From NCBI RefSeq assembly GCF_007827465.1, contig NZ_VISL01000001.1, positions 2,437,001 through 2,501,000 of the forward strand: a stretch of DNA of 64,000 bases, read 5' to 3'. Numbering within the stretch: position 1 is the first letter of the stretch; every line of letters starts with the position of its first letter. The notes beneath the pieces are model-generated. The model searched no databases. It was not told the origin of the DNA and saw only the letters and a program-made list of their open reading frames with translations. The stretch is from Dokdonia sp. Hel_I_53 (lineage in GTDB: Bacteria > Bacteroidota > Bacteroidia > Flavobacteriales > Flavobacteriaceae). Positions 1,771 to 63,743 of the stretch are shown one piece after another. Position numbers and translations under genes: made by a program.

Positions 1771-1784
1771 GCTTTCGCGAAAGC
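1771..1784. repeat. 14-bp palindrome, copy 1
   Basis: Exact GCTTTCGCGAAAGC between divergent rbfA and the epimerase gene, 21 bp before the epimerase start. Confidence 0.95.
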
Positions 1785-1805
1785 ATCTAAACCAACAAAG
1801 AAATA

Positions 1806-2216
1806 ATGAATAAAATAGAACACATTGGTATTGCTGTTAAAGATCTAGACGTAAGCAATAATTTATATACACAACTACTAGGTATATTGCCGTATAAAAT
1901 GGAAGTGGTTGAATCTGAAAGAGTCAATACTTCTTTTTTTAAAACAGGACCTAATAAGATTGAGTTGCTCCAAGCGACAGATGAAAATAGCGCGATTGCA
2001 AAGTTTATTGCAAAGAGGGGAGAGGGAGTTCATCATATCGCTTTTGCCGTAGATGATATTGTTGCAGAAATGAACCGTTTAAGAGACAAAGGATTTATTT
2101 TACTTAATGAAAAACCTAAGAAAGGGGCTGATAATAAGCTAGTCGCATTTGTACATCCTAAATCTTCTAATGGTGTACTTATAGAGTTGTGTCAAGAAAT
2201 TGACAATAAAGACTAA
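1806..2216 (+). CDS. mce: Methylmalonyl-CoA epimerase
   Basis: A 136-residue vicinal-oxygen-chelate (glyoxalase-fold) protein made of two beta-alpha-beta-beta-beta modules. Metal ligands expected for the epimerase are visible: His6 in KIEHIGIAV, Glu in NKIELLQA, His in EGVHHIAFAV and Glu in GVLIELCQ. It interconverts the 2R and 2S epimers of methylmalonyl-CoA, linking propionyl-CoA and succinyl-CoA. The start is the first ATG. It is monocistronic here; a tRNA promoter begins a few bases after the stop. Confidence 0.9.
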   Translation: MNKIEHIGIAVKDLDVSNNLYTQLLGILPYKMEVVESERVNTSFFKTGPNKIELLQATDENSAIAKFIAKRGEGVHHIAFAVDDIVAEMNRLRDKGFILLNEKPKKGADNKLVAFVHPKSSNGVLIELCQEIDNKD

Positions 2217-2221
2217 AATTC

Positions 2222-2252
2222 TTTGGTTAGGTCAGTATTTGTATTAAATTTG
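2222..2252 (+). promoter_or_regulatory. Bacteroidota-type promoter for tRNA-CAU
   Basis: TTTG at 2222-2225, a 19-nt spacer and TAAATTTG at 2245-2252 match the Bacteroidota consensus. It begins 6 bp after the epimerase stop and lies about 57 bp before the tRNA. Confidence 0.6.
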
Positions 2253-2308
2253 CACCCGTTTTAAAGCTAACTCTGTTGTCTGTTAAGATTGCAAATATCT
2301 TTATTACT

Positions 2309-2382
2309 GGTCCCATAGCTCAGTTGGTTAGAGCATCTGACTCATAATCAGAGGGTCCTTGGTTCGAGCCCAAGTGGGACCA
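2309..2382 (+). tRNA. tRNA with CAU anticodon (Met or lysidine-type Ile)
   Basis: A 74-nt cloverleaf. The acceptor arms GGTCCCA and TGGGACC pair, the discriminator base is A, and no CCA is encoded. The D arm has AGCTCAGTTGGTTAGAGC, the anticodon loop is CTCATAA, and the T arm contains GGTTCGAGCC. The loop fits both elongator Met and Ile2 (modified C34), and I cannot separate them by eye. Confidence 0.95.
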
Positions 2383-2396
2383 CGAAATTACATTAT

Positions 2397-2427
2397 AAAA
2401 CCCTTCGCATTGCGAAGGGTTTTTTGT
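2397..2427 (+). terminator. Rho-independent terminator after the tRNA
   Basis: The stem AACCCTTCGC / GCGAAGGGTT with a 3-nt loop is followed by a T tract. Confidence 0.9.
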
Positions 2428-2806
2428 TTTCAATGCTTTGAGAGATAGAATTTAAAATTATTTTTTTGATTAAAAAGAACTTTTACTGTTAGAGTTGCGT
2501 ATATCTTTAAAAGCTTGTGCTTCGTAAGCTCAGAAATCACTATAATTTTTAAATGATGGATTGCTTTTTTTAAATAAAAACTATTTCTATATTGTTTGTA
2601 AGATTTATTAATTGTACTTTTTTGTTTTAATAAAACTCTCAAGCTGCACTTTAGAAAAGTTGTATTTTTGATAGCATTAGCATAGTGTGTTTTGTTTAAA
2701 GCCATTACAATTTAATGTGAGTTAGTTTTAACAATACCTGCAATAATTATCTAGAAGGTTTCGTTTAGAAAGAAGCCCTTTATAATTTAACAAACTCTTG
2801 AATATC
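2428..2806. other. AT-rich intergenic region with no supported gene
   Basis: About 380 bp between the tRNA terminator and the small membrane protein. A 91-codon minus-strand frame (2430-2705) is only AT-rich Lys/Leu/Asn sequence with no domain. I see no convincing structure. Confidence 0.5.
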
Positions 2807-3046
2807 ATGAGCCCCAAACTCAGAAATTTCATTATAGTACTCTGCCTCTTTTTTGTGGCAATGCTGGGATATGGTCAAAAAGGACCGCCACCTCCAGTTA
2901 CGAGGGCAGCACCGCCACCGCCAGGACTTGCAGTGCCTATAAATGAAAATATTCTTATACTTTTAGTTTTGGGAGTTTTTCTTGGAATTTACTTTTACGT
3001 GATTAAATACAAGAAGGTAATTAAATCATCTAATAGCCAGCTGTAA
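2807..3046 (+). CDS. Small proline-rich exported membrane protein
   Basis: A 79-residue protein with an N-terminal hydrophobic signal or anchor (IIVLCLFFVAMLGYGQ), a proline cluster (GPPPPVTRAAPPPPG), a second hydrophobic segment (ILILLVLGVFLGIYFYVI) and a lysine-rich tail. The open frame begins with TTG at 2798, but the ATG at 2807 gives the cleaner signal sequence. Proline clusters before a C-terminal helix recall small flavobacterial sorting-type proteins, but I cannot assign a function. Its 3' end overlaps ribE by 17 bp tail to tail. Confidence 0.7.
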   Translation: MSPKLRNFIIVLCLFFVAMLGYGQKGPPPPVTRAAPPPPGLAVPINENILILLVLGVFLGIYFYVIKYKKVIKSSNSQL

Positions 3047-3617
3047 GTCGTTTTACATATTTACCTATTACGTCAAATTCTAGGTTTACCCTCGTGCCCA
3101 CTTCAAAATTCTTAAAGCCAGTGTTCTCATATGTATAGGGAATTATAGCAACACTAAAAGAACCTTTTTTTGAGTCTACTACTGTGAGACTTGTTCCATT
3201 CACAGTGATAGATCCTTTTTCAATGGTCACATTTTCTAGAGCAGTATCATATTCAAAAGTAAACCTCCAGCTTCCTTCCTCATTAACTTTTGCTACACAG
3301 ATACCTACTTGGTCTACATGACCCTGTACGATATGTCCATCTAGTCTTGCGCCTAGTTTCATAGCTCTTTCTAGATTGATGACATCTCCTTTATTTAGAT
3401 CTATGAGGTTAGTCTTTTCTAAAGTTTCTTTAATAGCTGTAACCACATAATTAGATCCATCAATGGCTACTACGGTTAGGCAGACACCATTATGTGCAAC
3501 ACTTTGATCAATTTTGAGCTCTGCGGTGATTGAACTTTTAATTGTATAGTGCAAATTTTCTTGTTCCTTATTAATTGAAATCACCGTTGCTAGATCTTCT
3601 ATAATGCCTGTAAACAT
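3030..3617 (-). CDS. ribE: Riboflavin synthase, alpha subunit
   Basis: A 195-residue enzyme that dismutates two 6,7-dimethyl-8-ribityllumazines into riboflavin and a pyrimidinedione. It starts with the hallmark MFTGIIED and has two tandem lumazine-binding beta-barrel halves (about 1-90 and 95-190), the first with HNGVCLTV and the second with LDGHIVQGHVDQVG and VNGTSLTVV. I reject the 14 upstream codons of the frame because the family begins at MFTGI. It is divergent from pdxA. I see no FMN riboswitch in front of it. Confidence 0.95.
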   Translation of the reverse strand: MFTGIIEDLATVISINKEQENLHYTIKSSITAELKIDQSVAHNGVCLTVVAIDGSNYVVTAIKETLEKTNLIDLNKGDVINLERAMKLGARLDGHIVQGHVDQVGICVAKVNEEGSWRFTFEYDTALENVTIEKGSITVNGTSLTVVDSKKGSFSVAIIPYTYENTGFKNFEVGTRVNLEFDVIGKYVKRLTAGY

Positions 3618-3676
3618 AAATGGATTTAATTTGGTTACTTTTGTCTTGTAAAAATACAAAACGCAATAGGCATCTT

Positions 3677-4762
3677 ATGAAGAAGGAGCAAAAAGTAAGG
3701 GTGGGAATTTCTATCGGAGATTTAAATGGTATCGGTACAGAAGTGGTAATGAAAACTTTTTCAGATCCCCTTATGCTTGATTTTTGTGTTCCTGTTATTT
3801 TTGCTTCGGCTAAGACATTAAACTATGTTAAGAAACAGTTGGGAATGCAGCTGGATTTTTATGGAATAGACGCTTTCGCGAAAGCGGCAGAAAATAAAAT
3901 TAATGTCTATAATTTATGGAAAGAGTCAGTAACGATAAACTGGGGAGAAGCTACAGAGACTTCTGGGGATTATGCTCTCAAATCTTTTACAGCAGCAACC
4001 GAAGCGCTCAAAAATGGTGATATAGATGTTCTAGTAACAGCTCCTATTAATAAATCTAATATTCAAAAAGAAGATTTTGTGTTTCCGGGGCATACAGACT
4101 ACCTAGCTCAAGAGTTAGAAGGTGATGCAATGATGCTTATGGTCACAGATACACTCAAAGTAGGTTTGCTTACAGACCATGTGGCAGTAAAAGATGTTGC
4201 CGAAAAAATTACACCTGTCCTTATTGAAAGTAAGATTCAAACGCTATATCAGACGTTACAGCAAGATTTTGGAATTGATCGACCTAAAATTGCACTATTG
4301 GGCATCAATCCTCATGTGGGAGATAATGGCGTAATAGGAGATGATGATGATAAAGTTTTAATACCTACCTTAGAAAAGATACGGAGTACAGGAAGGCTTG
4401 TATACGGGCCCTATGCGGCAGATAGTTTTTTTGGTTCTGGAAATTATAAAAATTTTGACGCGATTTTGGCAGCGTATCACGATCAGGGATTAATTCCTTT
4501 TAAAACGTTATCTTTTGGAAAAGGAGTAAACTATACTGCAGGATTAGATAAAATACGTACATCCCCAGATCACGGTACCGCATATGAAATAGCTGGAAAA
4601 GGGGAGGCAGATCCACGCTCTTTTAGACAAGCGGTATTCACTGCTATAAATATTTATAAAAAACGCTTAGAATATAAAGAGCTCACTAAGGATGTTCTAA
4701 AAGTTTCTCCTAAAAGGTTAGGCCGGGAAAGGTCTGGAAGACCACACGCTAAGAAAAAATAA
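3677..4762 (+). CDS. pdxA: 4-hydroxythreonine-4-phosphate dehydrogenase
   Basis: A 361-residue PdxA oxidises 4-phosphohydroxy-L-threonine in pyridoxal phosphate synthesis. The family start GISIGDLNGIGTE, the metal-binding His of FPGHTDYLAQE, and AAYHDQGLIPFKT with the NP and DH motifs near the C terminus are all present. The ATG at 3677 is chosen because the upstream part of the frame (from 3620) has no homology. A TACTTTTG box at 3636-3643 may be the -7 element. A copy of the 14-bp palindrome lies inside the gene and encodes AFAKA. The protein ends in a basic tail. Confidence 0.94.
   Translation: MKKEQKVRVGISIGDLNGIGTEVVMKTFSDPLMLDFCVPVIFASAKTLNYVKKQLGMQLDFYGIDAFAKAAENKINVYNLWKESVTINWGEATETSGDYALKSFTAATEALKNGDIDVLVTAPINKSNIQKEDFVFPGHTDYLAQELEGDAMMLMVTDTLKVGLLTDHVAVKDVAEKITPVLIESKIQTLYQTLQQDFGIDRPKIALLGINPHVGDNGVIGDDDDKVLIPTLEKIRSTGRLVYGPYAADSFFGSGNYKNFDAILAAYHDQGLIPFKTLSFGKGVNYTAGLDKIRTSPDHGTAYEIAGKGEADPRSFRQAVFTAINIYKKRLEYKELTKDVLKVSPKRLGRERSGRPHAKKK
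3872..3885. repeat. 14-bp palindrome, copy 2 (inside pdxA)
   Basis: Exact GCTTTCGCGAAAGC, read in frame as Ala-Phe-Ala-Lys-Ala. Confidence 0.95.
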
Positions 4763-4822
4763 TATTTAGTTCAAGATTAGTGTCTTAGAAATAAATTAAA
4801 GTAAATTAATTTTATCCCGCGC

Positions 4823-4852
4823 TTTAGTAATATAAAAAATTATGTATCTTTG
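4823..4852 (+). promoter_or_regulatory. Promoter of the yceD-rpmF operon
   Basis: TTTA at 4823-4826, an 18-nt spacer and TATCTTTG at 4845-4852 fit the Bacteroidota consensus. The box overlaps the upstream ATG at 4842, so translation must begin at the later ATG. Confidence 0.6.
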
Positions 4853-4874
4853 CGCGCTCCAAACGGCTGATGTG

Positions 4875-5414
4875 ATGAAAGGATTAAAACCATACACCAT
4901 ACAATACGTAGGTTTAAAAGAAGGAGAGCATACATTTGAATATACGATTACAAAATCGTTCTTTGATCTTTTTGAGTTTGATGACTATAATGAGTCTAAT
5001 GTAAGTGCAAAACTTACTTTGACAAAGAAGTCAACTTTAATGGAGTTTGACTTTAAAGTTGAAGGAACAGTTAATGTAAATTGCGATATTACAAATGAAC
5101 CATTTGACCACCCTGTAAAAGGGGAGTATGAGCTTGTTGTAAAATTTGGGCATGAGTTTAATGATGAGTTTGAGGACATATTGATACTTCCTTACGGGGA
5201 GTTTGAAATTAATGTAGCTCAATACATTTATGAACTTATAGTATTGTCTATGCCTAACAAAAGGGTTCATCCTGGAGTTGTAGACGGGACTCTTAAATCA
5301 GATATTTTGGATAAGCTTGAAGAGTTAAGCATACCAGATCAAGAAGTAAAAGAAAAAAAAGAAGATACAGATCCTAGATGGGATTCTTTAAAAAAACTAT
5401 TAACAGATAAATAA
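4875..5414 (+). CDS. YceD/DUF177 family protein
   Basis: A 179-residue DUF177 protein beginning MKGLKPYTIQYVGLKEGEH. The family is linked to 23S rRNA accumulation and almost always precedes rpmF, as here (9 bp gap). The conserved core VNCDITNEPFDHPV replaces the Cys-rich motif seen in some relatives, and the acidic EDILILPYGEFEINVAQYIYE segment is typical. The ATG at 4842 lies within the promoter box, so I start at 4875. Confidence 0.85.
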   Translation: MKGLKPYTIQYVGLKEGEHTFEYTITKSFFDLFEFDDYNESNVSAKLTLTKKSTLMEFDFKVEGTVNVNCDITNEPFDHPVKGEYELVVKFGHEFNDEFEDILILPYGEFEINVAQYIYELIVLSMPNKRVHPGVVDGTLKSDILDKLEELSIPDQEVKEKKEDTDPRWDSLKKLLTDK

Positions 5415-5423
5415 GAGTACGTA

Positions 5424-5621
5424 ATGGCACATCCTAAAAGAAAAATCTCGAAAACAAGAAGAGATAAAAGAAGAACGCATTACAAGGCTGCTGTACCGCA
5501 AATAGCTGTAGATCCTACAACTGGAGAAGCGCACCTTTATCACAGAGCACACTGGTTCGAAGGTAAGTTGTATTACAGAGGGCAAGTAGTGATTGATAAA
5601 ACTGAAGAAGTAGAGGCATAG
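5424..5621 (+). CDS. rpmF: 50S ribosomal protein L32
   Basis: A 65-residue L32 beginning [19 protein letters not shown], the universal start of the family. No zinc-binding Cys pair is visible, so this is the Cys-free form. It is cotranscribed with yceD and followed by a clear terminator. The plsX gene that follows rpmF in Escherichia coli is absent here; fabH comes next. Confidence 0.97.
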
Positions 5622-5643
5622 TCCTCACTTTTAAGAAGATAGA

Positions 5644-5671
5644 ACTCCCATTGAAATGGGGGTTTTTTTTA
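5644..5671 (+). terminator. Terminator after rpmF
   Basis: The inverted repeat CTCCCATT / AATGGGGG is followed by eight T residues. Confidence 0.85.
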
Positions 5672-5736
5672 TGCGCTAAAATTGGCAAAAAAAGTTAATT
5701 TTAAACTCATTTTGATCAATTTTTAGTAATTTCCCC

Positions 5737-5768
5737 TTCGATTTTAATCAAAAATGATCAAAATCGAA
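5737..5768. promoter_or_regulatory. Inverted repeat upstream of fabH (candidate operator)
   Basis: The arms TTCGATTTT (5737-5745) and AAAATCGAA (5760-5768) are perfect 9-bp inverted repeats with a 14-nt spacer, ending 19 bp before the fabH ATG. The size and position suit a dimeric repressor site for a fatty-acid regulator, or a 5'-UTR hairpin. No regulator gene is nearby. Confidence 0.45.
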
Positions 5769-5787
5769 ACAAATTTAATCAACGCAA

Positions 5788-6786
5788 ATGACTAAAATCT
5801 CAGCAGCAATTACCGCTGTGGGCGCATACGTTCCAGAATATGTGTTAACTAATGATATTCTGGCAACAATGGTCGATACAAATGACGAGTGGATTACCAC
5901 TCGAACGGGTATAAAGGAACGTCGCATTCTAAAAGAAGAAGGACAAGGAACCTCCTTCTTGGCAATAAAGGCAGCTCAAGATTTGTTAAATAAAAAAAAT
6001 CTTGACCCAGCAGAAATTGATATGGTTATCGTAGCAACCGCTACACCAGATATGCCTGTGGCCTCCACTGCTGTATATACAGCAACGCAAATAGGGGCTG
6101 TAAATGCGTTTGCATTTGACCTTTCTGCAGCTTGCTCCAGTTTTTTATATGGAATGTCTACAGCTTCTAGTTACATCGAGTCTGGTAGATATAAAAAAGT
6201 TTTATTGATAGGGGCAGATAAGATGTCCTCAATAATTGATTATACAGACAGAACCACGTGTATCATTTTTGGTGATGGTGGTGGTGCCGTACTTTTTGAA
6301 CCTAATGAGGAAGGTCTTGGTTTGCGAGATGAGTATTTACGCTCAGACGGAATAGGGCGTGATTTCCTTAAAATAGATGCTGGAGGAAGTATCTTACCTA
6401 CCTCGCAAGAAACATTAGATAATAAACAACATACGGTATTTCAAGATGGTAAAACCGTCTTTAAATTTGCAGTGTCAAATATGGCAGATGTAAGCGATAA
6501 AATTATGAAACGCAATAACCTTACTGGTGAAAGCGTGGACTTTTTAATAGCGCATCAAGCCAATAAACGAATTATAGATGCTACTTCCAGAAGGATGGAA
6601 CTTGATGAGGACAAAGTTCTTATCAATATTCATAAATATGGAAATACGACATCAGCAACCTTACCACTGCTGATGAGCGACTATGAGAAACAATTGAAAA
6701 AAGGAGATAATATCATATTTGCTGCCTTTGGCGGCGGATTCACTTGGGGTTCAATTTACCTCAAATGGGCATATGACTCTAAGTAA
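5788..6786 (+). CDS. fabH: Beta-ketoacyl-ACP synthase III
   Basis: A 332-residue KAS III that condenses acetyl-CoA with malonyl-ACP to start fatty-acid synthesis. The catalytic triad is visible: Cys116 in LSAACSSFLYGM, His in LIAHQANKRI and Asn in HKYGNTTSATLPL. The C-terminal GGGFTWGSIYLKW is typical. The ATG start gives the usual ITAVGAYVPE N terminus. It heads an apparent operon with accB (25 bp gap) and accC, so chain initiation and malonyl-CoA supply are linked. An inverted repeat lies just upstream. Confidence 0.96.
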   Translation: MTKISAAITAVGAYVPEYVLTNDILATMVDTNDEWITTRTGIKERRILKEEGQGTSFLAIKAAQDLLNKKNLDPAEIDMVIVATATPDMPVASTAVYTATQIGAVNAFAFDLSAACSSFLYGMSTASSYIESGRYKKVLLIGADKMSSIIDYTDRTTCIIFGDGGGAVLFEPNEEGLGLRDEYLRSDGIGRDFLKIDAGGSILPTSQETLDNKQHTVFQDGKTVFKFAVSNMADVSDKIMKRNNLTGESVDFLIAHQANKRIIDATSRRMELDEDKVLINIHKYGNTTSATLPLLMSDYEKQLKKGDNIIFAAFGGGFTWGSIYLKWAYDSK

Positions 6787-6811
6787 CCTAAACTGACTAA
6801 CTCAGAAAATT

Positions 6812-7306: not shown

Positions 7307-7351
7307 TCCCTTGCGGGTATTTTAATCATTGAAGTGCTTAGTTGATGTTAT

Positions 7352-7365
7352 GCTTTCGCGAAAGC
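7352..7365. repeat. 14-bp palindrome, copy 3
   Basis: Exact copy between accB and accC, inside an apparent operon. Confidence 0.95.
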
Positions 7366-7409
7366 GTAATCAAATACCTTCTAAGCATCTACAATAAAAA
7401 CTAAACACT

Positions 7410-8803: not shown

Positions 8804-8817
8804 GCTTTCGCGAAAGC
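8804..8817. repeat. 14-bp palindrome, copy 4
   Basis: Exact copy in the convergent gap after the accC terminator. Confidence 0.95.
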
Positions 8818-10729: not shown

Positions 10730-10743
10730 GCTTTCGCGAAAGC
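10730..10743. repeat. 14-bp palindrome, copy 5
   Basis: Exact copy, 28 bp upstream of the PLP enzyme start. Confidence 0.95.
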
Positions 10744-15840: not shown

Positions 15841-15853
15841 GCTTTCGCGAAAA
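15841..15853. repeat. Imperfect 14-bp palindrome
   Basis: GCTTTCGCGAAAA matches the abundant palindrome on the left arm and loses the final GC. Confidence 0.7.
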
Positions 15854-15981
15854 TTTAAATTGGCTAAAAAAAGGGAGAGACAATTGCAGAGTGTAATTCT
15901 AAATTTTAGTTATGCGATGTGTAAGTGGAAGAATTGTTTTGAGATTTGTGGTGTTCTAATTCCTAAGTTGAAGAAAAATCT

Positions 15982-17694: not shown

Positions 17695-17708
17695 GCTTTC
17701 GCGAAAGC
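17695..17708. repeat. 14-bp palindrome, copy 6
   Basis: Exact copy immediately after repeat B copy 3. Confidence 0.95.
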
Positions 17709-21219: not shown

Positions 21220-21233
21220 GCTTTCGCGAAAGC
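21220..21233. repeat. 14-bp palindrome, copy 7
   Basis: Exact copy at the end of repeat B copy 2, just past the 3' end of the Fe-S protein gene. Confidence 0.95.
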
Positions 21234-24244: not shown

Positions 24245-24476
24245 ACTAATGGGTATTTGTACAATCGTAAATATATCTTTTTAAAAACACATTTTGGGTG
24301 TGTTACTATTCTAAATACGCTTTCGCGAAAGCGTATATATTTTTTAAGCTAGTTAAATTCTTGTTGGGTAGTTTTAAATATAGGAAACTCAGAGCTCTCA
24401 AAAGTTATTTAAAAAAAATGCTTGGATCACTGGAATAGACCTTTAGACGCAAATTAAAAATTTAGAAAGCAGAATA
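24245..24476. other. Divergent intergenic region
   Basis: 232 bp between two divergent genes, holding the palindrome at 24319. I cannot assign a clear promoter. Confidence 0.4.
24319..24332. repeat. 14-bp palindrome, copy 8
   Basis: Exact copy within TACGC...GCGTA flanks, so the palindrome extends to 20 bp. Confidence 0.95.
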
Positions 24477-25532
24477 ATGAAGGTCTTGTCAAATGGTGTA
24501 TCTTTCAAAGAAAAAGTAAGTAAGGTGAATCTTATTATAAAAACATTTATTTTTATTCTTCTATGTTCCTGCAGTGCGCAACCTGTACCAGAGATGAAAA
24601 TTAAGGGAGTAAGCTTTGTCGCAAACCGAAGCCCTGTAGATAGTACCCATGTTAAACCAGTAAAAGATCTTCATGCAAATTATGCTGCGGTGATGCCTTT
24701 TGGATTTATACCAGAAAAGGATGCTCCGCAAATTGTTTATAACACAGACCGGCAATGGTATGGTGAGACTAAAGAAGGAGGGCGCAATTATATTACCCAG
24801 TTGCATAAGGGGAATATAAACGTTATGATGAAACCTCAATTATGGATTCGTCACGGAGAATTTACCGGCTATCTCAAAATGCGTACAGAAGAGGATTGGC
24901 TAGCCCTAGAAGAATCTTACAGGGTTTTTATCATAGAGTATGCAGTGCTAGCTCAAGAAGAGAATACAGCTATCTTCTGTATAGGCACAGAGCTTGAAAA
25001 TTTTGTAAGCAACAGACCAGAATTCTGGAAGCAACTTATTATTGATATCAGGAAAATCTATAATGGCAAACTTACATATGCGGCAAATTGGGATGAATAT
25101 AAGCGAACTCCTTTTTGGAATCAGCTAGATTTTATTGGAGTAGATGCATATTTTCCTGTATGCGATGAAGAAACACCATCTGTAGCCTGTGCTAGGGAAG
25201 GGTGGAAAAAGTGGGGAGGAGAGCTAGCTGCTTTCGCGAAAGCAAAAGACCGTAAAGTTATTTTCACAGAATTTGGGTACAGATCAGTCGATTATACGGG
25301 TAGAGAACCTTGGAAAGCAGACCGATCTATGACTGGGGTAAATCTCCAAGGACAAGCAAACGCAACTCAGGCATTGCTAGAAACAGTTTGGCAAGAAGAG
25401 TGGATGGCAGGTGGGTTTGTCTGGAAGTGGTTTATTCATCATGATGAGGTAGGTGGAGAACAGAATAATCAATACACCCCCCAAAACAAACCAGCAGCCG
25501 AAATTTTGCGTACTTATTTTGAACGTGACTAG
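24477..25532 (+). CDS. GH113-like glycoside hydrolase lipoprotein
   Basis: A 351-residue protein with a lipoprotein signal (IFILLCSCSAQ). The catalytic TIM barrel matches glycoside hydrolase family 113 by its general acid in FCIGTELENF, its likely nucleophile in VIFTEFGYRS, and GVDAYFPVCD plus the C-terminal GGFVWKWFIHHDE. GH113 contains beta-mannanases; activity here is inferred. The start ATG leaves a rather long charged N-region before the signal. A 14-bp palindrome inside the gene encodes AAFAKAK. The Omp85-type gene follows after 62 bp. Confidence 0.8.
   Translation: MKVLSNGVSFKEKVSKVNLIIKTFIFILLCSCSAQPVPEMKIKGVSFVANRSPVDSTHVKPVKDLHANYAAVMPFGFIPEKDAPQIVYNTDRQWYGETKEGGRNYITQLHKGNINVMMKPQLWIRHGEFTGYLKMRTEEDWLALEESYRVFIIEYAVLAQEENTAIFCIGTELENFVSNRPEFWKQLIIDIRKIYNGKLTYAANWDEYKRTPFWNQLDFIGVDAYFPVCDEETPSVACAREGWKKWGGELAAFAKAKDRKVIFTEFGYRSVDYTGREPWKADRSMTGVNLQGQANATQALLETVWQEEWMAGGFVWKWFIHHDEVGGEQNNQYTPQNKPAAEILRTYFERD
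25230..25243. repeat. 14-bp palindrome, copy 9 (inside the GH113 gene)
   Basis: Exact copy, read in frame as Ala-Phe-Ala-Lys-Ala. Confidence 0.95.
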
Positions 25533-27406: not shown

Positions 27407-27420
27407 GCTTTCGCGAAAGC
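27407..27420. repeat. 14-bp palindrome, copy 10
   Basis: Exact copy 9 bp past the 3' end of the first hybrid kinase gene. Confidence 0.95.
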
Positions 27421-33000: not shown

Positions 33001-33014
33001 GCTTTCGCGAAAAC
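33001..33014. repeat. Imperfect 14-bp palindrome
   Basis: GCTTTCGCGAAAAC differs at one base and directly follows the terminator T tract. Confidence 0.8.
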
Positions 33015-35824: not shown

Positions 35825-35838
35825 GCTTTCGCGAAAGC
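35825..35838. repeat. 14-bp palindrome, copy 11
   Basis: Exact copy with TACGC/GCGTA flanks, 7 bp past the 3' end of the GT2 gene. Confidence 0.95.
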
Positions 35839-35845: not shown

Positions 35846-36562
35846 TTAAGAAACCTTTTTAAGGTAAAATTGATGAAGTTCTTCTGGACTTGCGCCAAAC
35901 CACTTCCGAACATATATAGACCAAAAATAGTATTGTAATTTCCAAATACCATTTTCTTCATATCGCCTGGCAGAAGTGGTGAGCCATTCTTGTATGACCA
36001 CAAATTCGTTGCGAGCGTACAATTTATTTATAAGATCATTATCTTCATAAATAATGTAGCGTTCGTCAAATCTTCCTAGCTCGTTAAAAAGGTTTTTGGT
36101 GATGAATTGGCTCTGATCACCACCCCGGCAAGCGCGCCATTCAAACTGAGTAAGCCACCCTGCGAGACGTAACCACCAGTGATTTGAGTCAAATTTCATT
36201 TTAAAACAACCGGCCTCATTACCCTGCTCAACTTCTTTTATAATAAGGTGGTCATAATCTTGTGGAGGGTAGGAATCTGCATGCAGAAAATATAGGATAT
36301 CACCCTTTGCGCTTTCTGAGCCAGTATTCATTTGAGCAGCACGCCCTTTTTTAGAATGTAATATTTTAATGTGACTGTGATCTTGCTTTCGCGAAAGCGT
36401 AGCTACTTTCTCAAAAGTGTCATCATCACTACCGCCATCTACTACAATAATCTCACTAATATTTGAAATAGAAAAAGCCTTCTGCTTCAAGTGTTCTAGT
36501 AGCTCAATAATCGTTGCAGATTCATTAAACACAGGAATTATAATTGAAATAGAAGACTTCAT
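35846..36562 (-). CDS. GT2 glycosyltransferase of the arsenosugar-associated type (TIGR04283)
   Basis: A 238-residue GT-A-fold glycosyltransferase. The start SISIIIPVFNESATI, the EIIVVDGGSDDDT and SKKGRAAQMNTGSE motifs, and LYFLHADSYPP (with the metal-binding acidic region) match the family that co-occurs with ArsM and ArsS. The C-terminal half contains GGDQSQFITKNLF and IYEDNDLI. The rest of the arsenosugar cluster starts about 3.3 kb to the right on the same strand, separated by a DUF547/sigma module. A palindrome copy lies inside the gene and is read as LSRK. Confidence 0.82.
   Translation of the reverse strand: MKSSISIIIPVFNESATIIELLEHLKQKAFSISNISEIIVVDGGSDDDTFEKVATLSRKQDHSHIKILHSKKGRAAQMNTGSESAKGDILYFLHADSYPPQDYDHLIIKEVEQGNEAGCFKMKFDSNHWWLRLAGWLTQFEWRACRGGDQSQFITKNLFNELGRFDERYIIYEDNDLINKLYARNEFVVIQEWLTTSARRYEENGIWKLQYYFWSIYVRKWFGASPEELHQFYLKKVS
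36385..36398. repeat. 14-bp palindrome, copy 12 (inside the GT2 gene)
   Basis: Exact copy, read in frame as Leu-Ser-Arg-Lys (ATLSRKQ). Confidence 0.95.
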
Positions 36563-39733: not shown

Positions 39734-39747
39734 GCTTTCGCGAAAGC
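39734..39747. repeat. 14-bp palindrome, copy 13
   Basis: Exact copy just upstream of the DUF547 gene start. Confidence 0.95.
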
Positions 39748-41843: not shown

Positions 41844-41857
41844 GCTTTCGCGAAAGC
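41844..41857. repeat. 14-bp palindrome, copy 14
   Basis: Exact copy between the phosphorylase and arsM genes, within the operon. Confidence 0.95.
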
Positions 41858-43683: not shown

Positions 43684-44178
43684 CTAGTAAACTTTATGTC
43701 CTGTTTTTAAATACTTTCCCCATACTTTGGAAAATACGTGAACAGAGTCGGTTGGTTGTTTTTTCTTGTTTTGAATTTCGTAGCCTTCATCTTTCCAAGC
43801 AAATATGCTTCCGTATAGATTTTTGACGTTTGTAAATCCTTTCTTCTTCAGTCGCTCGCCAAAATCTTCAGAGCGTATCCCTACTGAGCAATAAACGACG
43901 ATGGGTTGATTTTTTTTTGCTTTCGCGAAAGCGTACAAACTATCATTCACCTTCTCAGAAACCCACACCGCGCCGGGAATATGACTTACCTCATACTCTT
44001 CTTTTTTACGGGTGTCGAGTATGAGGTAATCCTCTAGTTCCATCTTGAGCTGTTGCACCGAAATGTAAGGAACAGAGCGGGTGTTGTACTGTTTTAAAAG
44101 TACATCCATATCCGACTGTCCAGACGTAATGGCGGAAACCAATAAAAGTAATATGTAAGCGATATGTTTAGTTTTCAC
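43684..44178 (-). CDS. Exported rhodanese-domain protein
   Basis: A 164-residue protein with a signal peptide (IAYILLLLVSAITSG) and a single rhodanese domain (about 35-135). The active-site loop is VVYCSVGIRSEDF with the catalytic Cys, and YLILDTRKKEEYEVSHIPGAV is the conserved entry motif. Rhodaneses transfer sulfur; in an arsenosugar cluster a role in forming thio-arsenicals or handling thiol-bound arsenic is conceivable but unproven. A palindrome copy within the gene encodes AFAKA. Confidence 0.85.
   Translation of the reverse strand: MKTKHIAYILLLLVSAITSGQSDMDVLLKQYNTRSVPYISVQQLKMELEDYLILDTRKKEEYEVSHIPGAVWVSEKVNDSLYAFAKAKKNQPIVVYCSVGIRSEDFGERLKKKGFTNVKNLYGSIFAWKDEGYEIQNKKKQPTDSVHVFSKVWGKYLKTGHKVY
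43919..43932. repeat. 14-bp palindrome, copy 15 (inside the rhodanese gene)
   Basis: Exact copy, read in frame as Ala-Phe-Ala-Lys-Ala. Confidence 0.95.
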
Positions 44179-47911: not shown

Positions 47912-47925
47912 GCTTTCGCGAAAGC
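47912..47925. repeat. 14-bp palindrome, copy 16
   Basis: Exact copy in the 34-bp gap between the SusC and SusD genes. Confidence 0.95.
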
Positions 47926-51208: not shown

Positions 51209-51814
51209 TTAAATACGAGCTAATGATGGTGATCCCTTATTAAAGTGGCTTTTAGTGAGCGACTCAAAGAATCGTTTTATAGTGTGGTAACCAAGAGAAA
51301 CACCTTGATTTACTATGTTTAATATAAATTGTAATAGTTTTTCTGATAGTGAAGAAGCCTCGTTTAGAATTTGCTTTAGATCTGCATAGGTGTCAAGATC
51401 TGAGAGCGTCTCAAGGAGGTAAAGGTTTGTACGCTTTCGCGAAAGCGTATCAGAAATAATTGCACCCAGTTTACTAGACTGCCATGGTAGGTTTTTAAAC
51501 TGCTCAGGCTTAAAATGGTTCTTTTTAATTCCCATTAAATAACAACCACCATCTGTGCTTGGGCCAATAACAAGCGCAGATTGCTTGAGCTTTTCTTGCG
51601 CTAAAAGAATATGTCCCGCCGAAAGGAGCGGAGTATCATTACCTATGGTTATAACTTGGTCATAACCACTGTCAAAAACTGTTGTAAGCGCATTTGTAAA
51701 GCGCTCGCCAAAGGTGTTTCCTACTTGCTCATTTTCAGAAAAAATAACATAAGAAATTCCTGTCTTGCGTGCCGTTGCGATAGTTTGCCTATTGAGCTCT
51801 TTAAATAAAGCCAC
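51209..51814 (-). CDS. DUF2064-type glycosyltransferase (TIGR04282), start codon unclear
   Basis: A 201-residue frame from GTG. Conserved blocks are VITIGNDTPLLSAGHI (DxD-like) and SALVIGPSTDGGCYLMGIKK. The family normally begins about 30 residues earlier. The same frame continues upstream with the matching segment KTAILIFAQTA and reaches a TAG at 51899-51901 without any ATG, GTG or TTG. The real start may be a rare codon (ATC or ATA) near 51880-51895, or the gene may be damaged. It follows arsS closely. A palindrome copy inside is read as LSRK. Confidence 0.7.
   Translation of the reverse strand: MALFKELNRQTIATARKTGISYVIFSENEQVGNTFGERFTNALTTVFDSGYDQVITIGNDTPLLSAGHILLAQEKLKQSALVIGPSTDGGCYLMGIKKNHFKPEQFKNLPWQSSKLGAIISDTLSRKRTNLYLLETLSDLDTYADLKQILNEASSLSEKLLQFILNIVNQGVSLGYHTIKRFFESLTKSHFNKGSPSLARI
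51433..51446. repeat. 14-bp palindrome, copy 17 (inside a glycosyltransferase gene)
   Basis: Exact copy, read in frame as Leu-Ser-Arg-Lys (DTLSRKR). Confidence 0.95.
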
Positions 51815-53020: not shown

Positions 53021-53034
53021 GCTTTCGCGAAAGC
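53021..53034. repeat. 14-bp palindrome, copy 18
   Basis: Exact copy between the peroxidase-like gene and arsS. Confidence 0.95.
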
Positions 53035-55994: not shown

Positions 55995-56720
55995 ATGCAA
56001 CTCATAATAGATGTAGGTAATACACGTGTAAAAATTGCCGTATTTGAAATTAATAATTTACTTGCAAGACATGATTTTGAGCTATCAGATTTCAATAGCG
56101 AGGTTATACGATTTATTAAAAAATATCCTATAAAAAAAGCGATTGTTTCTTCTGTGGGAAGGTTGTCTCGTGAGCAGCTTCGGTTGGTGCAGTTGAGGTT
56201 TCCTACGACTTTACTTAGTCATAAAATACCTCTTCCTTTTACAAATGAGTACGGTACTCCAGAAACGCTAGGCGTTGATAGAATGGCATTAGTTTCCGCT
56301 TTCGCGAAAGAATATCCTCATAAAAATGGACTTATAATAGATGCTGGCACCTGCATCACATTTGACTTTATTGATTCTAAGGGGTCATATAAGGGCGGAG
56401 CAATATCTCCGGGCATAAGATTGCGTTATAAATCATTACATGAACTCACTGCAAATTTGCCTTTGCTTGAAAAGCTAATGCCAAAAAGCATTGTGGGAAC
56501 AACCACAGAGACTAGTATTCATTCTGGAATTGTACAAGGAATAATTTTAGAAATTGACGGTGTTATAAATGAATATAAGACGCAATATCATGTCGATACT
56601 GTAATATTAACTGGAGGTGATGCGCAATTCTTGGCAAAACGATTAAAAAATAGCATCTTTGCGCACTCAAATTTTTTACTTGAGGGCCTCAATTATATTT
56701 TAACACATTCTGATGATTAA
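55995..56720 (+). CDS. coaX: Type III pantothenate kinase
   Basis: A 241-residue ASKHA-fold kinase catalysing the first step of CoA synthesis. Signature motifs are MQLIIDVGNTRVKIAVF (phosphate 1), GVDRMALVSAF, LIIDAGTCITFDFI (phosphate 2) and GGAISPGIRLRYKSL. It overlaps the next gene by 8 bp, beginning a tightly packed run up to the CorC-type gene. An imperfect 14-bp palindrome lies in the codons for AFAKE. Confidence 0.95.
   Translation: MQLIIDVGNTRVKIAVFEINNLLARHDFELSDFNSEVIRFIKKYPIKKAIVSSVGRLSREQLRLVQLRFPTTLLSHKIPLPFTNEYGTPETLGVDRMALVSAFAKEYPHKNGLIIDAGTCITFDFIDSKGSYKGGAISPGIRLRYKSLHELTANLPLLEKLMPKSIVGTTTETSIHSGIVQGIILEIDGVINEYKTQYHVDTVILTGGDAQFLAKRLKNSIFAHSNFLLEGLNYILTHSDD
56298..56310. 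repeat. Imperfect 14-bp palindrome (inside coaX)
   Basis: GCTTTCGCGAAAG followed by A instead of C, read as Ala-Phe-Ala-Lys. Confidence 0.8.
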
Positions 56721-59357: not shown

Positions 59358-59929
59358 TGAGATACTCCATACTAAATAACACATTTTACTTAGTCACGGC
59401 AATTGCCGTGACTTTGCTTTTGGGTTGTGATGGAAAAGCAGATGAAATACGCGCAATGAGTATTAAATCTGATGCACCTGCTACAGAGGGAAGAGGTATT
59501 GATATGAAATATGTAGATTCTGGAAAAGTAACGGCTCACCTCAAGACCCCGTACGTTAAGGATTATGCAAATGCATTAAATCCTTACCAAGAATTTCCAG
59601 ATGGTGTAGAAGTTATTTTTATTAATGAAGAAGGAGAGGAAAGTGTAATAACATCAGATTATGCAATAAGGTATCTTACTACAAATCTTATTGATTTACG
59701 AACTAATGTAAAGGTGTTTACAAGCGATTCTGCAACATTAAATGCAGAGCAGATGTATTGGGATCAAGCGAATAGTTGGATTTTTACAGATCAACCCTAC
59801 ACCATAGTATTAAAAGATGGATCAACAAATAGGGGAGACCTCTTTGATTCTAATGAGAAGCTTACAAATTTTGTATCTTTAAATAACGTAAGCAAACAGT
59901 ACGTAAAAGAAAATTCAGAAGATTTATGA
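59357..59929 (+). CDS. lptC: LPS export ABC transporter periplasmic protein LptC
   Basis: A 190-residue protein with a GTG start overlapping the previous stop. An N-terminal hydrophobic segment with Cys (AVTLLLGCDGKADE) suggests a lipoprotein-type anchor. The LptC jellyroll is indicated by YVDSGKVTAHLKTPYVKDY, YQEFPDGVEVIFINEEGEE and the EQMYWDQANSWIFTDQPYTI segment. It links LptB2FG to LptA in lipopolysaccharide transport. Confidence 0.88.
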   Translation: MRYSILNNTFYLVTAIAVTLLLGCDGKADEIRAMSIKSDAPATEGRGIDMKYVDSGKVTAHLKTPYVKDYANALNPYQEFPDGVEVIFINEEGEESVITSDYAIRYLTTNLIDLRTNVKVFTSDSATLNAEQMYWDQANSWIFTDQPYTIVLKDGSTNRGDLFDSNEKLTNFVSLNNVSKQYVKENSEDL

Positions 59930-60123
59930 TGCGATATGCAAAATACAGAGAGTGGTTATATGCAATAACAGGAATATTTTCATTGTATAAAGTGATTGCT
60001 TTGTGGGGAACAGAAGAACAATCTAGAGCCTATCTATTTTTATTTTTTTTAGGCTTGAGCATAGGGATGTTCTTTTTTACCCGTCACTTTCGAAAGAAGT
60101 TCGATAAACGCAATAACTCTTAA
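59926..60123 (+). CDS. Small membrane protein between lptC and the CorC-type gene
   Basis: A 65-residue protein with two hydrophobic segments (about 10-26 and 36-51) and a basic C terminus (RHFRKKFDKRNNS). It overlaps lptC by 4 bp and the next gene by 1 bp, which strongly supports it being translated. No known family is recognised. Confidence 0.75.
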   Translation: MMRYAKYREWLYAITGIFSLYKVIALWGTEEQSRAYLFLFFLGLSIGMFFFTRHFRKKFDKRNNS

Positions 60124-61421
60124 TGGGGAGCCTTGAAACTCAAATTATTGTTGTTTGCTGCTCATTAATACTGTCAGCTTTTTTTTCTGGGATGGAGATT
60201 GCCTATGTATCTGCAAATAAAATCCATATTGAAATAGAGAAAAAACAAAATGATTTTCTTTCTGTTGTCCTTAAAAAACTAACAGAGAAACCATCTAAGT
60301 TTATAGCTACTATGCTGCTGGGAAATAACATTGCCCTTGTGGTGTATGGTTATTTTATGGGAGCTATTTTACAAAATTGGCTCGTAGGGATGCCTTTCGG
60401 CGAAAACATAAGTTGGCTCAATAGTTTTATAGAAGAATTTAGTTTGTTAAGCCAGACTATTATTTCTACCATAGTCATCTTAATTACTGCTGAATTTTTG
60501 CCTAAGGTCTTCTTCCAGATTTATGCAAATAAGTTGCTTAAGTTCTTAGCTATTCCAGCCTATTTCTTTTACCTAGTATTTAGCTTTTTAAGTATGTTTA
60601 TCATTTGGATTTCAGATCTCGTTTTGAAATATGTTTTTAAGACAGATGGAGATGAAGTTCAGCTAGCATTTACAAAGGTGGAGCTTGGAAATTATATTTC
60701 AGAGCAAATGGAATCTGTAAATGATCAAGATGAGGTAGATACAGAAATTCAAATTTTCCAAAATGCATTAGAATTCTCTGAAGTAAAGTCACGAGATGTG
60801 ATGATTCCTAGAACTGAAATTATTGCTGTAGATGAGCGCACAACTCCTGCTGCGATTAATAAACTATTTATAGAAACAGGTCTTTCTAAGGTTTTGGTGT
60901 ATAAAGATACTATAGATGATATAATAGGGTATGTACATTCTTTTGAACTCTTCAAAAATCCTAAAACCATTAGCAGCGTGTTAATGCCTGTAGTATTTGT
61001 TCCCGAGACAATGTTAGTGAAGGATGTTCTCAATACTTTAACTAAAAAACATAAAAGTATTTGTGTTGTCATAGATGAATATGGAGGAACAAGCGGCATG
61101 TTAACTGTTGAAGATATCGTGGAAGAGCTCTTTGGAGAGATCGAAGATGAGCACGATAGTGTAGAGCTGGTCGAAGAAACGATAGGAGATAATCACTACA
61201 AACTTTCTGCAAGACATGAAGTGGATTATCTAAATGAAACCTACAAATTAGATCTGCCTGAAAGTGAAAATTACGGGACTTTAGGGGGGTTGGTGGTAAG
61301 CTATGCAGAAGAAATACCAGAAGCTGGAGAAACGATAGAGATAGAGGGATTTATCTTTAATATTCTTGAGACTTCAAATACAAAAATTGAACTCTTAGAA
61401 GTGCTACGTTCTAAAGACTAA
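60123..61421 (+). CDS. HlyC/CorC family membrane protein with CBS domains
   Basis: A 432-residue protein. An N-terminal DUF21/CNNM domain with about four helices (about 1-180) is followed by two CBS domains (about 220-335, with SRDVMIPRTEIIAVDE and VVIDEYGGTSGMLTVEDIVEE) and a C-terminal CorC/HlyC domain (about 345-430). The family is linked to Mg or Co efflux and, in gliding Bacteroidota, to GldE; I cannot decide which applies. It is the last of the overlapping run that starts at coaX. Confidence 0.87.
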   Translation: MGSLETQIIVVCCSLILSAFFSGMEIAYVSANKIHIEIEKKQNDFLSVVLKKLTEKPSKFIATMLLGNNIALVVYGYFMGAILQNWLVGMPFGENISWLNSFIEEFSLLSQTIISTIVILITAEFLPKVFFQIYANKLLKFLAIPAYFFYLVFSFLSMFIIWISDLVLKYVFKTDGDEVQLAFTKVELGNYISEQMESVNDQDEVDTEIQIFQNALEFSEVKSRDVMIPRTEIIAVDERTTPAAINKLFIETGLSKVLVYKDTIDDIIGYVHSFELFKNPKTISSVLMPVVFVPETMLVKDVLNTLTKKHKSICVVIDEYGGTSGMLTVEDIVEELFGEIEDEHDSVELVEETIGDNHYKLSARHEVDYLNETYKLDLPESENYGTLGGLVVSYAEEIPEAGETIEIEGFIFNILETSNTKIELLEVLRSKD

Positions 61422-61435
61422 TATTGACTTATTTT

Positions 61436-61470
61436 TTTGTTTTTTATTATGCGAGAAAATGGTATTTTCG
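61436..61470 (+). promoter_or_regulatory. Probable promoter of the ppiD-like gene
   Basis: TTTG at 61436-61439, a 23-nt spacer and TATTTTCG at 61463-61470 (one mismatch to TAnnTTTG), 29 bp before the ATG. Confidence 0.4.
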
Positions 61471-61498
61471 CCCACTATTATAGCATAAACTACATACA

Positions 61499-63640
61499 AT
61501 GGCAATTTTAAATAAAATTCGTAGCAAGAGTATCTTTTTGATTATCATCATCGCACTTGCACTTTTTGCATTTATCTTCTCATCTATCCTAGATAGTGGT
61601 GGATTTAGTGCAGATAAGCAAAACCGCGTGGCTTCAATAAATGGAGTGAATATAGATCGTGAAGATTTTGCTGCAAAAGTTGAAGCTCAGTCACGTCGTC
61701 TAGGTGCTAATGCATCTACAACTAGAGCAGTAAACACTGTTTGGGATCAAGAAGTAAATCGTGTTCTTTTAGAAGAGCAGTATGAAGAGCTAGGGATACA
61801 AGTAGGAAAAGATCGTACACAAGAACTTTTAAAACAAGCACTACAAAGTGATGCCCGTTTTCAAGATGCAGATGGTTTCTTTAGTGAAGCAAAAATGCAA
61901 GAGTTTATCGCTACAATGAGGGAGAGTCAAAATCCTAATGACTACAGATCATGGTTAACCTTTGAGGAATCTTTGAGAAATCAAGAAAAACAAAATATCT
62001 ATTACAATCTTGTAAAGGCTGGCGTAGGAGCTACACTTAAAGATGGTGAAGTTGCATACAGATTAGATGGAAACAATGTAGATATTCAGTTTGTACAAGT
62101 GCCATATACATCAATTCCTGATGAAGATGTGTCTGTAAGCAAAGAAGAAATACAAGATTATATTAATGATCATAAAGATGAATTTAAAACGGAGGCAACC
62201 CGTTCTATCCGATTTGTGAAATTTGCAGAAGAAGCTTCACTTGAAGATGAAAATCAATTAAAAGCAGAGCTTGAAAAGATACGAAAGCCATATACCTCCC
62301 GTAATGGGGCAACTGGAGTAAATGAAACTGTCATGGGTATGGAAGAAACAGAGAATATAGAAGACTTCATTGCAGAGAATTCTGATACTCCTTACGTAGA
62401 TAGATGGTTTTTCAAGAAAGATCTTCCTTCAAGTATTGCAGATACGCTATTTTCTATGAATACTGGTGATATCTATGGGCCCTATAAAGATGGAAAATTC
62501 ATGAATCTTAGTCGTGTAGTTGCTGTACGCACTATGCCAGATTCTATTAGATCTAGCCATATTCTTATCGATTACCAAGGTGCAATTACAAATACTCAAA
62601 GAGGTCCTGTAGCATCTACATCCACAAGAACAAAAGAAGAAGCAAAGCAATTAGCTGATAGTTTACTAACTGTGCTAAAGAGAAACTCTTCTAAGTTTGA
62701 AGATTTAGCTAAAGAGTTTTCTACAGATGTTTCTAATGCTGACAAAGGAGGGGACTTAGATTACCAAAACCCTAATTTATTCGCAGAGGAGTTTAGAGAT
62801 TTCTTAGTAGATAACAAAACAGGTGATTTAGGGATGGCAGAAACAAATTTTGGTTTCCACGTGATCAAAATTGTAGACCAAAAGAACAGCCAAAAAGTAA
62901 TGAAAATAGCTACGGTTGTAAAAGAAATTACACCATCTGACAAAACAATTTCAAATGTGTATAACACCACGCAAAAATTTGAAATTGCTGCTAAAGATGG
63001 TAATTTTCAAGAAGTAGCAACAGAAAATGGATATGCAGTACGACCAGTGCAAAGAATGCGTGCAATGGACGAAAACCTGCCAGGAGAAGGAGCTCAAAGG
63101 GCAGTTGTACAGTGGGCTTTCGAAGAAGATATAAAAGTAGGAGATATCAAACGTTTCGCAACAAATGATGGATATCTTGTAGCACAGGTAACACGTAAAA
63201 CGCCTAAAGGTACAGAGCGCGTAGAAGATGTCTCAGCTAGAGTGACTCCGATCTTACGTAACCAAAAGAAAGCTGAGGTTATTAAGGATAAATTTTCTGG
63301 CAGTACACTTGAAGAGATGGCTCAATCTCAAAATCAAGCTGTAAAATCTGCAAATGGAGTTTCTATGAATGTTCCTACGATTGCAGGTGCAGGTAACGAC
63401 CCTAAAGTAGTGGGAGCTGCTTTTGGACTTAATGAAGGAGAATTATCAAGCCCAATTGAAGGTGAAAGAGGTGTCTATGTGCTTAAAGTCACAAAAATAA
63501 CAGAGGCGGCACCTTTAGATAATTACGCTAGTTATGCTGCTCAACAAGCCCAAAAAGCTAGAGTAGCTGTAAATAGTAAAGTTCTTACTGCACTTAAGGA
63601 AGCTGCAGAGATTGAAGACAATAGATCTAAATTCTACTAG
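61499..63640 (+). CDS. PpiD/SurA-type periplasmic peptidyl-prolyl isomerase
   Basis: A 713-residue protein anchored by one N-terminal helix (IFLIIIIALALFAFIFSSIL) with a large periplasmic part. It has a SurA_N-like region (about 40-180, RVASINGVNIDREDFAAKV) and a parvulin domain (about 350-465, IRSSHILIDYQGA, FEDLAKEFSTDVSNADKGGDL, FGFHVIKIVDQ). The layout matches PpiD, a folding factor for outer-membrane proteins at the inner-membrane surface. It has its own upstream region and a strong terminator. Confidence 0.9.
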   Translation: MAILNKIRSKSIFLIIIIALALFAFIFSSILDSGGFSADKQNRVASINGVNIDREDFAAKVEAQSRRLGANASTTRAVNTVWDQEVNRVLLEEQYEELGIQVGKDRTQELLKQALQSDARFQDADGFFSEAKMQEFIATMRESQNPNDYRSWLTFEESLRNQEKQNIYYNLVKAGVGATLKDGEVAYRLDGNNVDIQFVQVPYTSIPDEDVSVSKEEIQDYINDHKDEFKTEATRSIRFVKFAEEASLEDENQLKAELEKIRKPYTSRNGATGVNETVMGMEETENIEDFIAENSDTPYVDRWFFKKDLPSSIADTLFSMNTGDIYGPYKDGKFMNLSRVVAVRTMPDSIRSSHILIDYQGAITNTQRGPVASTSTRTKEEAKQLADSLLTVLKRNSSKFEDLAKEFSTDVSNADKGGDLDYQNPNLFAEEFRDFLVDNKTGDLGMAETNFGFHVIKIVDQKNSQKVMKIATVVKEITPSDKTISNVYNTTQKFEIAAKDGNFQEVATENGYAVRPVQRMRAMDENLPGEGAQRAVVQWAFEEDIKVGDIKRFATNDGYLVAQVTRKTPKGTERVEDVSARVTPILRNQKKAEVIKDKFSGSTLEEMAQSQNQAVKSANGVSMNVPTIAGAGNDPKVVGAAFGLNEGELSSPIEGERGVYVLKVTKITEAAPLDNYASYAAQQAQKARVAVNSKVLTALKEAAEIEDNRSKFY

Positions 63641-63678
63641 TAGTTGAGAAAGATTTACAATCGACTATATTAAAATAA

Positions 63679-63713
63679 AAAATGCCTGAGATTTCTTCTC
63701 AGGCATTTTTTTT
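63679..63713 (+). terminator. Terminator after the ppiD-like gene
   Basis: AATGCCTGAG and CTCAGGCATT pair around ATTTCTT and are followed by a T tract; A residues on the left make it possibly bidirectional for the convergent partial gene. Confidence 0.92.
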
Positions 63714-63729
63714 ATGGAATAAGAATTGC

Positions 63730-63743
63730 GCTTTCGCGAAAGC
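63730..63743. repeat. 14-bp palindrome, copy 19
   Basis: Exact copy between the terminator and the partial GHMP kinase gene. Confidence 0.95.

Follow-up and report, generated by a model that had tools for sequence, protein, structure and literature searches.

What maintains a perfectly palindromic 14-bp word, GCTTTCGCGAAAGC, at short intervals along the chromosome of Dokdonia sp. Hel_I_53 is the question raised by the 64,000-nucleotide stretch that was analysed here as the window (contig NZ_VISL01000001.1, positions 2,437,001 to 2,501,000 of the forward strand). All 19 exact copies reported from the 64-kb window in an earlier note on this DNA were present, and dinucleotide shuffles (n = 100) contained no match. 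In the whole genome (G000, 2.93 Mb), the word was counted 700 times (about one per 4 kb) and the reversed control word not once; a count near expectation was thus not seen, and the description of the word as highly iterated and maintained held genome-wide. The best explanation, judged from the sequence data and given about an even chance of being correct, is a palindromic DNA uptake sequence with a site of about 52 bp, spread by molecular drive.

Strictness, flanks and placement of the sites

Site statistics were obtained from 464 kb of G000 (window included), 400 kb of G190, and 380 kb of G242, a genome of another genus (g11) for which 19 stretches out of 20 were used, and gene classes were assigned with a home-made gene caller (88% of bases coding). 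Exact copies outnumbered one-mismatch copies in each sample (116 against 15 in G000, 49 against 20 in G190, and 86 against 10 in G242). Two-mismatch copies numbered 20 in the G000 sample; none of them kept the palindrome, and nine, counted over both strands, were the asymmetric variant GCTTTCGCGAAAAT. The imperfect copies noted earlier in the window are real, with two mismatches at 15841 and one each at 33001 and 56298; the statement that many copies extend to the 20-mer TACGCTTTCGCGAAAGCGTA was too strong, only 4 of the 19 doing so (24319, 35825, 51433 and 53021).

Around the word, the G content of the outward strand was low from about nt 4 to nt 19 on both sides, giving a symmetric signature of about 52 bp. 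Outward-strand G over nt 4-19 was 0.072 in G000, 0.058 in G242 and 0.174 in G190, against 0.151, 0.162 and 0.217, respectively, over nt 40-60, the effect in G190 being mild, and C was raised over nt 4-19 in all three. Position by position, G over nt 4-19 ranged from 0.03 to 0.11 in G000 (background 0.18), with a sharp edge marked by a rise to 0.16 at nt 20, and from 0.01 to 0.12 in G242. The G-poor bias over nt 4-18 was present separately in coding, tandem, convergent and divergent G000 sites, small classes varying further out, so that gene orientation does not account for it. Next to the word, the most frequent triplet was GTA in Dokdonia, at 38% of half-sites, and in g11 it was GGA, at 32%. 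Pairing between the left and right flanks was not above chance, and an extended RNA hairpin was rejected for that reason. A symmetric protein footprint of 19 + 14 + 19 bp is predicted, mainly from the G000 sites. Past nt 19, the G000 flanks were of background composition only, so that the copies are not part of a longer mobile repeat, an explanation that had been raised as one that would overturn the earlier view of the word.

Among the 116 G000 sites, 50 lay in coding sequence and 65 between genes (42 tandem, 12 convergent, 11 divergent), one at a stretch edge being unplaced. Site densities were about 0.12 per kb in coding sequence and 1.25, 2.1 and 0.73 per kb in tandem, convergent and divergent spacers, respectively, and the intergenic density (about 1.2 per kb) was thus about 10 times the coding density. 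Nineteen of the 42 tandem sites lay 1-15 nt beyond the upstream stop codon, and the coding sites were read as AFAKA (28), FRES (13) or LSRK (9). Intergenic sites make up a larger share in the window than in the 464-kb sample (14/19 against 65/116); the 14 intergenic copies of the window agree with the number given before, and the copies at 3872, 25230, 36385, 43919 and 51433 fall in called genes. With 50 coding and 11 divergent sites among the 116, the word is not confined to gene 3' ends, and the argument of the earlier note that neither a terminator nor a single operator explains it was borne out.

Short gaps between sites were scarce. Against a null that kept gene class and permitted one site per intergenic gap, gaps shorter than 1 kb numbered 4 of 95 where 20.8 were expected, and none of 2000 simulations gave a value as low. 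In lists of consecutive sites, such gaps numbered 2/99 in G000 (20.0 expected), 4/99 in G397 (22.7 expected), 0/99 in G190 (12.5 expected), and 5/93 in one contig of G755 (18.3 expected), and the coefficient of variation of the spacing was significantly low in three of the four lists (G000, G397 and G190). Counts per 20 kb at 20 sampled places were 2-8, with a variance (2.98) below the mean (4.85); since all 20 places carried sites in this range, a restriction to one part of the chromosome of the MatP/SlmA type was not found.

Conservation, distribution and movement

The sites are stable in position. The copy in the accB-accC spacer (7352..7365) was exact in 13 of 15 aligned Dokdonia and in 3 of 3 g11 genomes, with the spacer diverged around it; two symmetric changes were found in G206, and the site was absent from G401 and G190. 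The copy at 1771..1784, which is flanked by divergent genes and whose 52-bp signature would span 1752-1803, was exact and in the same position in 12 of 13 aligned Dokdonia. Within pdxA, the copy at 3872..3885 (read A-F-A-K-A) was exact in nine other aligned Dokdonia and one base off in G401; its place was taken by unrelated codons of the same length, with no indel, in four Dokdonia (G398, G408, G412 and G410), and was different, with alignment gaps, in two more (G405 and G404) and in G190 and G242. In alignments of 78-85% identity, 126 of 130 sites were exact, against 8-12% of random control 14-mers, and at greater divergence the word was still exact at 192 of 244 intergenic sites but at only 34 of 113 coding sites. 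These counts were made over ordered pairs of 17 Dokdonia loci, and the pairs are not independent trials because of shared ancestry and the few positions involved.

Among 397 genomes of the family, six carried hundreds of copies (two of Dokdonia, three of g11 and one of g191), the next highest count being 19. A sample of 393 genomes from the order gave at most 2 copies per genome outside this family. Taken by genus, 18 of 18 Dokdonia genomes carried 369-905 copies and 23 of 23 g11 genomes carried 288-857; the sole g191 genome carried 408. In a four-gene tree of 101 taxa, these motif-bearing genera were all grouped (support 0.96). After 40 genera were added they were not grouped, their common ancestor spanning 54 taxa of which 19 were motif-bearing, and a single motif clade was not rejected in a 55-row test (approximately unbiased test, p 0.62; the constrained tree scored higher). 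One origin for the motif genera is possible. A genome of g145 (G144) with 9 copies adjoined Dokdonia in one tree with weak support, and could hold a remnant or an island. Other dialects were not seen among 80 loci of relatives, in which a 12-mer palindrome occurred three or more times only in one Dokdonia locus (L010), runs of N aside; a short Dokdonia contig (L009) carried one site. An excess of TTCNGAA in Aequorivita-like loci was rejected as a candidate, as it was not enriched between called genes (the caller being poorly trained on short loci) and is likely to reflect codon usage.

Over the first 437 kb of G000, the widest interval between sites was 20 kb (L336, G000:C1:391600-411500); it encodes an Eco57I/MmeI-type methylase and, next to each other, an OLD-like ATPase and a UvrD-like helicase, a defence-island-like set. 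This single gap, the one looked at, is what an absence of sites from foreign DNA would predict. In other genera, 20 stretches surrounding low-copy sites held 43 sites in all, of which 40 fell within called genes, and 11 of the 20 have related gene clusters (L089-L097, L102 and L107) from several motif-free genera; the sampled cluster genes were of metal- or drug-type efflux (AcrB-type, outer-membrane efflux) and P-type ATPase. In four genomes with related clusters, two sites are exactly 933 bp apart. Flanking G is depleted at the low-copy sites too (0.089 against 0.193), and their arm resembles that of g11 (GGA 30%); to judge by their composition, these sites look as if they had been shaped in a motif-bearing host and then moved, in few events given that the copies are related.

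A 3.2-kb cassette (L377, L378) is shared by G000 and the g11 genome G755 at 92% identity, far closer than is usual between the two, and carries two sites 223 bp apart in both genomes. DUF7192 was found in one of its five scanned genes, and no match to it was seen in 1.95 Mb from motif-free genera. As it was noticed through its odd spacing, it is uninformative on exchange rates. Viral contigs contributed at least 80 loci with at least 85 sites and no clear pattern, many of the sites shown being in GC-rich contigs. Five low-GC viral contigs (L183, L191, L192, L195 and L200) with 2-3 copies are possibly (pro)phages of motif-bearing hosts.

Uptake weighed against other explanations

In the proposed mechanism, cells would import related outside DNA, probably by pilus-free machinery of the Riemerella type (a surface DUF5689 protein, an outer-membrane barrel and ComEC), a putative, probably dimeric receptor would favour fragments carrying the site, and recombination of the favoured imports would spread and repair sites by molecular drive. 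One site per few kb would suffice, hence the even spacing. Sites would settle where they are least harmful, beyond stop codons and in tolerant stretches of proteins, and would be common to related genera, with dialects. We infer all of site-biased uptake, maintenance by drive, cell competence and any receptor from this pattern. The strict consensus, the many in-gene sites and the regular spacing together favour uptake drive, and the feature set fits uptake sequences better than operators, repetitive extragenic palindromic (REP) sequences, terminators or chromosome-domain sites.

Perfect copies exceed one-mismatch copies both in uptake signal sequences (USS) and in DNA uptake sequences (DUS), unlike in regulatory binding sites, and USS have flanking segments and subclade types (PMC1626085). 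A significantly even spacing of uptake sequences, citing Karlin, and a non-coding excess are given in PMC1939737, and according to PMC7811141 uptake sequences are scarce in new DNA and in coding sequence, molecular drive being a sufficient cause. Uptake sequences had been set aside in the earlier note for the lack of orientation of the word, which cannot be followed here: in strict consensus, spacing, intergenic bias, genus dialects and flanking segments, the sites resemble uptake sequences most.

As for machinery, 43 of 44 genomes had DUF5689 and 19 of 20 had ComEC; all 8 motif genomes tested had the two. In each of 19 genomes, the gene ahead of that for DUF5689 is of barrel size (domains checked in G000). 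Riemerella is transformed without pili by way of a surface protein with DUF5689, the outer-membrane protein encoded next to it, ComEC, DprA, ComF and others (PMC8459023), and R. columbina prefers its own DNA (PMC7965970). The sole tested genome without DUF5689 and ComEC was G030, which was placed in the ComEC set for lacking DUF5689; the double absence fits a place for DUF5689 in the transformation machinery.

Several observations weigh against uptake. The DUF5689, barrel and ComEC genes are also present in motif-free genera; since their occurrence does not follow that of the motif, they establish the possibility of uptake and not its site specificity. Trees of the barrel and of DUF5689 (19 genomes) do not separate the motif genera, the barrel tree grouping Dokdonia and g11 each by genus only and the DUF5689 tree splitting both, with only G206 and G190 paired across motif genera; a receptor recognisable by co-variation was rejected on these trees. 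A pilus-type ATPase (PF00437 above cut-off) was found in 3 of 8 motif genomes, including G000, and in 6 of 36 others, so that the distribution of a classical uptake apparatus does not follow that of the motif, and a link to type IV pili was likewise rejected. The test of evenness by coefficient of variation was not significant in G755 (p 0.24), though the deficit of short gaps is, and in g11 (G242) the flank signature fades gradually past nt 19 (0.115 over nt 20-29 and 0.136 over nt 30-39). Known uptake sequences (DUES) are not palindromes in the account of PMC1939737, and in PMC7811141 they are unevenly distributed round the chromosome, which makes evenness no sure hallmark. Of the marks by which uptake sequences are recognised, an asymmetric core and a type IV pilus apparatus do not apply here; symmetry that is perfect in the word and extends to the flanks points equally well to a dimeric protein inside the cell, and no uptake or transformation data for Dokdonia were found in the literature.

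Such a protein is the live rival. An abundant dimeric nucleoid- or chromosome-organising protein would bind the site of about 52 bp, and selection would keep about one site per 4 kb; this is rather unlikely, and the dimeric DNA-binding or nucleoid protein suggested in the earlier note is retained as an alternative and not as the preferred reading. Its strongest point is the perfect dyad symmetry. The flank signature, which is symmetric and in G000 ends clearly at nt 19, the conservation, the even spacing and the genome-wide spread without a clear domain (2-8 per 20 kb) agree with it. The consensus, however, is stricter than in usual regulatory sites (116 perfect against 15 one-mismatch copies; PMC1626085), and the gain of a 14-bp word inside many genes (50/116) would be hard to achieve by weak selection on each site. 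Nor was an extra ParB-like protein seen, each of 8 motif genomes having one match to PF02195, the sole family searched for such a protein; a ParB paralogue with a Noc/ParB-type site was rejected on the same count. An intracellular mark of self, Chi-like or modification-like, by which recombination or defence would shield the cell's own DNA from a nuclease, is improbable. The density of about one per 4 kb, the outward-strand composition bias and the few low-GC viral contigs with 2-3 copies are in its favour, but many sites among the viral matches listed are in GC-rich contigs, and Chi-type words are shorter and directional. Moreover, counts of the inner 6-mer TCGCGA outside TTTCGCGAAA were 17 in G000 (30.2 expected), 33 in G242 (23.7 expected) and 83 in G190 (81.3 expected), ranking 17, 54 and 41, respectively, among 64 palindromes. 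These counts and ranks give no consistent avoidance, and the methylation mark listed earlier as a possibility is not favoured by them.

The two remaining explanations are given very little weight. A selfish or transposed short palindrome, REP-like or resembling a miniature inverted-repeat transposable element, would account for the high copy number, the palindrome and the intergenic bias, but at the pdxA place in four Dokdonia a same-length replacement was found and no clean insertion, the one-sided GTAG/CGTC tag that marks most REPs (PMC3733652) is missing, and the sites are evenly spaced and stable in position. An element acting at the RNA level, a bidirectional terminator or 3'-end hairpin, is just as improbable: it would be in keeping with the 19 of 42 tandem sites lying 1-15 nt beyond a stop codon and with the density being highest between convergent genes, but not with the 50 of 116 sites in genes and 11 between divergent genes, with sites that come after a separate terminator-like hairpin, or with flank pairing not above chance and the loss of the palindrome in all 20 two-mismatch copies.

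The word may tentatively be taken, at slightly less than an even chance, as a palindromic uptake sequence of about 52 bp, the first in Bacteroidota, with a pilus-free outer-membrane reader. It would be the common self-tag of at least two to three genera (Dokdonia, g11 and g191) forming a DNA-sharing group, and the tag in mobile islands would be a fossil of earlier hosts. Outside Pasteurellaceae and Neisseriaceae, both of which use pili, no uptake sequence is known to be established. The same two uptake-sequence families are named in PMC7811141. If the word is such a palindromic uptake sequence in marine Flavobacteriaceae, uptake sequences arise independently and with a different uptake machine, and the self-preference of Riemerella-type transformation, hitherto unexplained, becomes testable; it would also open a way to transform marine bacteria of ecological importance and provide a sequence marker of between-genus gene flow. 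If the site is architectural instead, it points to an abundant new chromosome-organising protein.

Individual copies in the window and known systems

Besides the copies at 1771, 3872 and 7352 described above, the exact copy at 8804..8817 lies between convergent genes, past the terminator-like hairpin of accC, and those at 10730..10743, 17695..17708 and, by the home-made gene calls, 39734..39747 are intergenic. A stop codon precedes the intergenic copies at 21220..21233 (15 nt before), 27407..27420 (9 nt) and 35825..35838 (7 nt; full 20-mer) and those at 41844..41857 (4 nt) and 53021..53034 (6 nt; full 20-mer), and the copy at 47912..47925 lies 1 nt beyond the stop codon of a TonB-dependent receptor gene. 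The copy at 24319..24332, again a full 20-mer, is flanked by divergent genes, and that at 63730..63743 is intergenic, beyond a SurA/PPIase gene. Within called genes are the copies at 25230..25243 (a GH113-like gene), 36385..36398, 43919..43932 and 51433..51446 (full 20-mer). The imperfect copies are GCTTTCGCGAAAAT at 15841..15854 (two mismatches, the recurrent asymmetric variant), GCTTTCGCGAAAAC at 33001..33014 (one mismatch, intergenic, past a terminator-like hairpin) and GCTTTCGCGAAAGA at 56298..56311 (one mismatch, within a called gene).

No account of such a word in Dokdonia was found in the literature covered, which excluded subscription journals and preprints, and occurrences of the core word there look unrelated, as judged from their listing. 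Among known systems, HIP1 of cyanobacteria is a shorter word lying largely in genes, unlike the Dokdonia site. The DUS of Neisseriaceae reportedly come in dialects, and their receptor is the ComP pilin. HIP1 and the Dokdonia site are alike in being palindromic, highly iterated words; the HIP1 word is given in PMC1939737, though not under that name. REPs are likewise palindromic, of high copy number and mostly extragenic, but they form a stem-loop of 20-40 bp, most with a one-sided GTAG/CGTC tag, and are thought to be mobilised by RAYT (PMC3733652); no such one-sided tag was found at the Dokdonia site, which is symmetric together with its flanks. With Riemerella transformation, the tested Dokdonia, g11 and g191 genomes share an encoded DUF5689 protein, adjacent barrel and ComEC; Riemerella has no established uptake sequence, and in PMC7965970 frequent words are listed with their function left open.

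The likeness to DUS is that of an abundant genome-wide word with dialects, whereas the DUS word itself is different, asymmetric and, according to PMC1626085, without flanking motifs. The USS of Pasteurellaceae (Haemophilus influenzae) are alike in their hundreds to thousands of copies, with perfect copies exceeding one-mismatch copies (PMC1626085), and in their flanking segments, non-coding excess, even spacing (Karlin) and subclade types (PMC1626085, PMC1939737, PMC7811141). They differ in having a 9-bp asymmetric core, one-sided AT-rich segments and a type IV pilus machine, whereas the Dokdonia site, from Bacteroidota, is perfectly palindromic, its strand-biased, G-poor flanks mirror each other, and only 3 of 8 motif genomes have PF00437. 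Hundreds of copies in genome-wide excess, more perfect than one-mismatch copies and under-representation in coding sequence are thus features held in common with uptake sequences. The site is not filed as a member of the USS/DUS kind because known members have an asymmetric word and rely on pili, neither property being general among the motif genomes; it may nevertheless act as a USS or DUS does.

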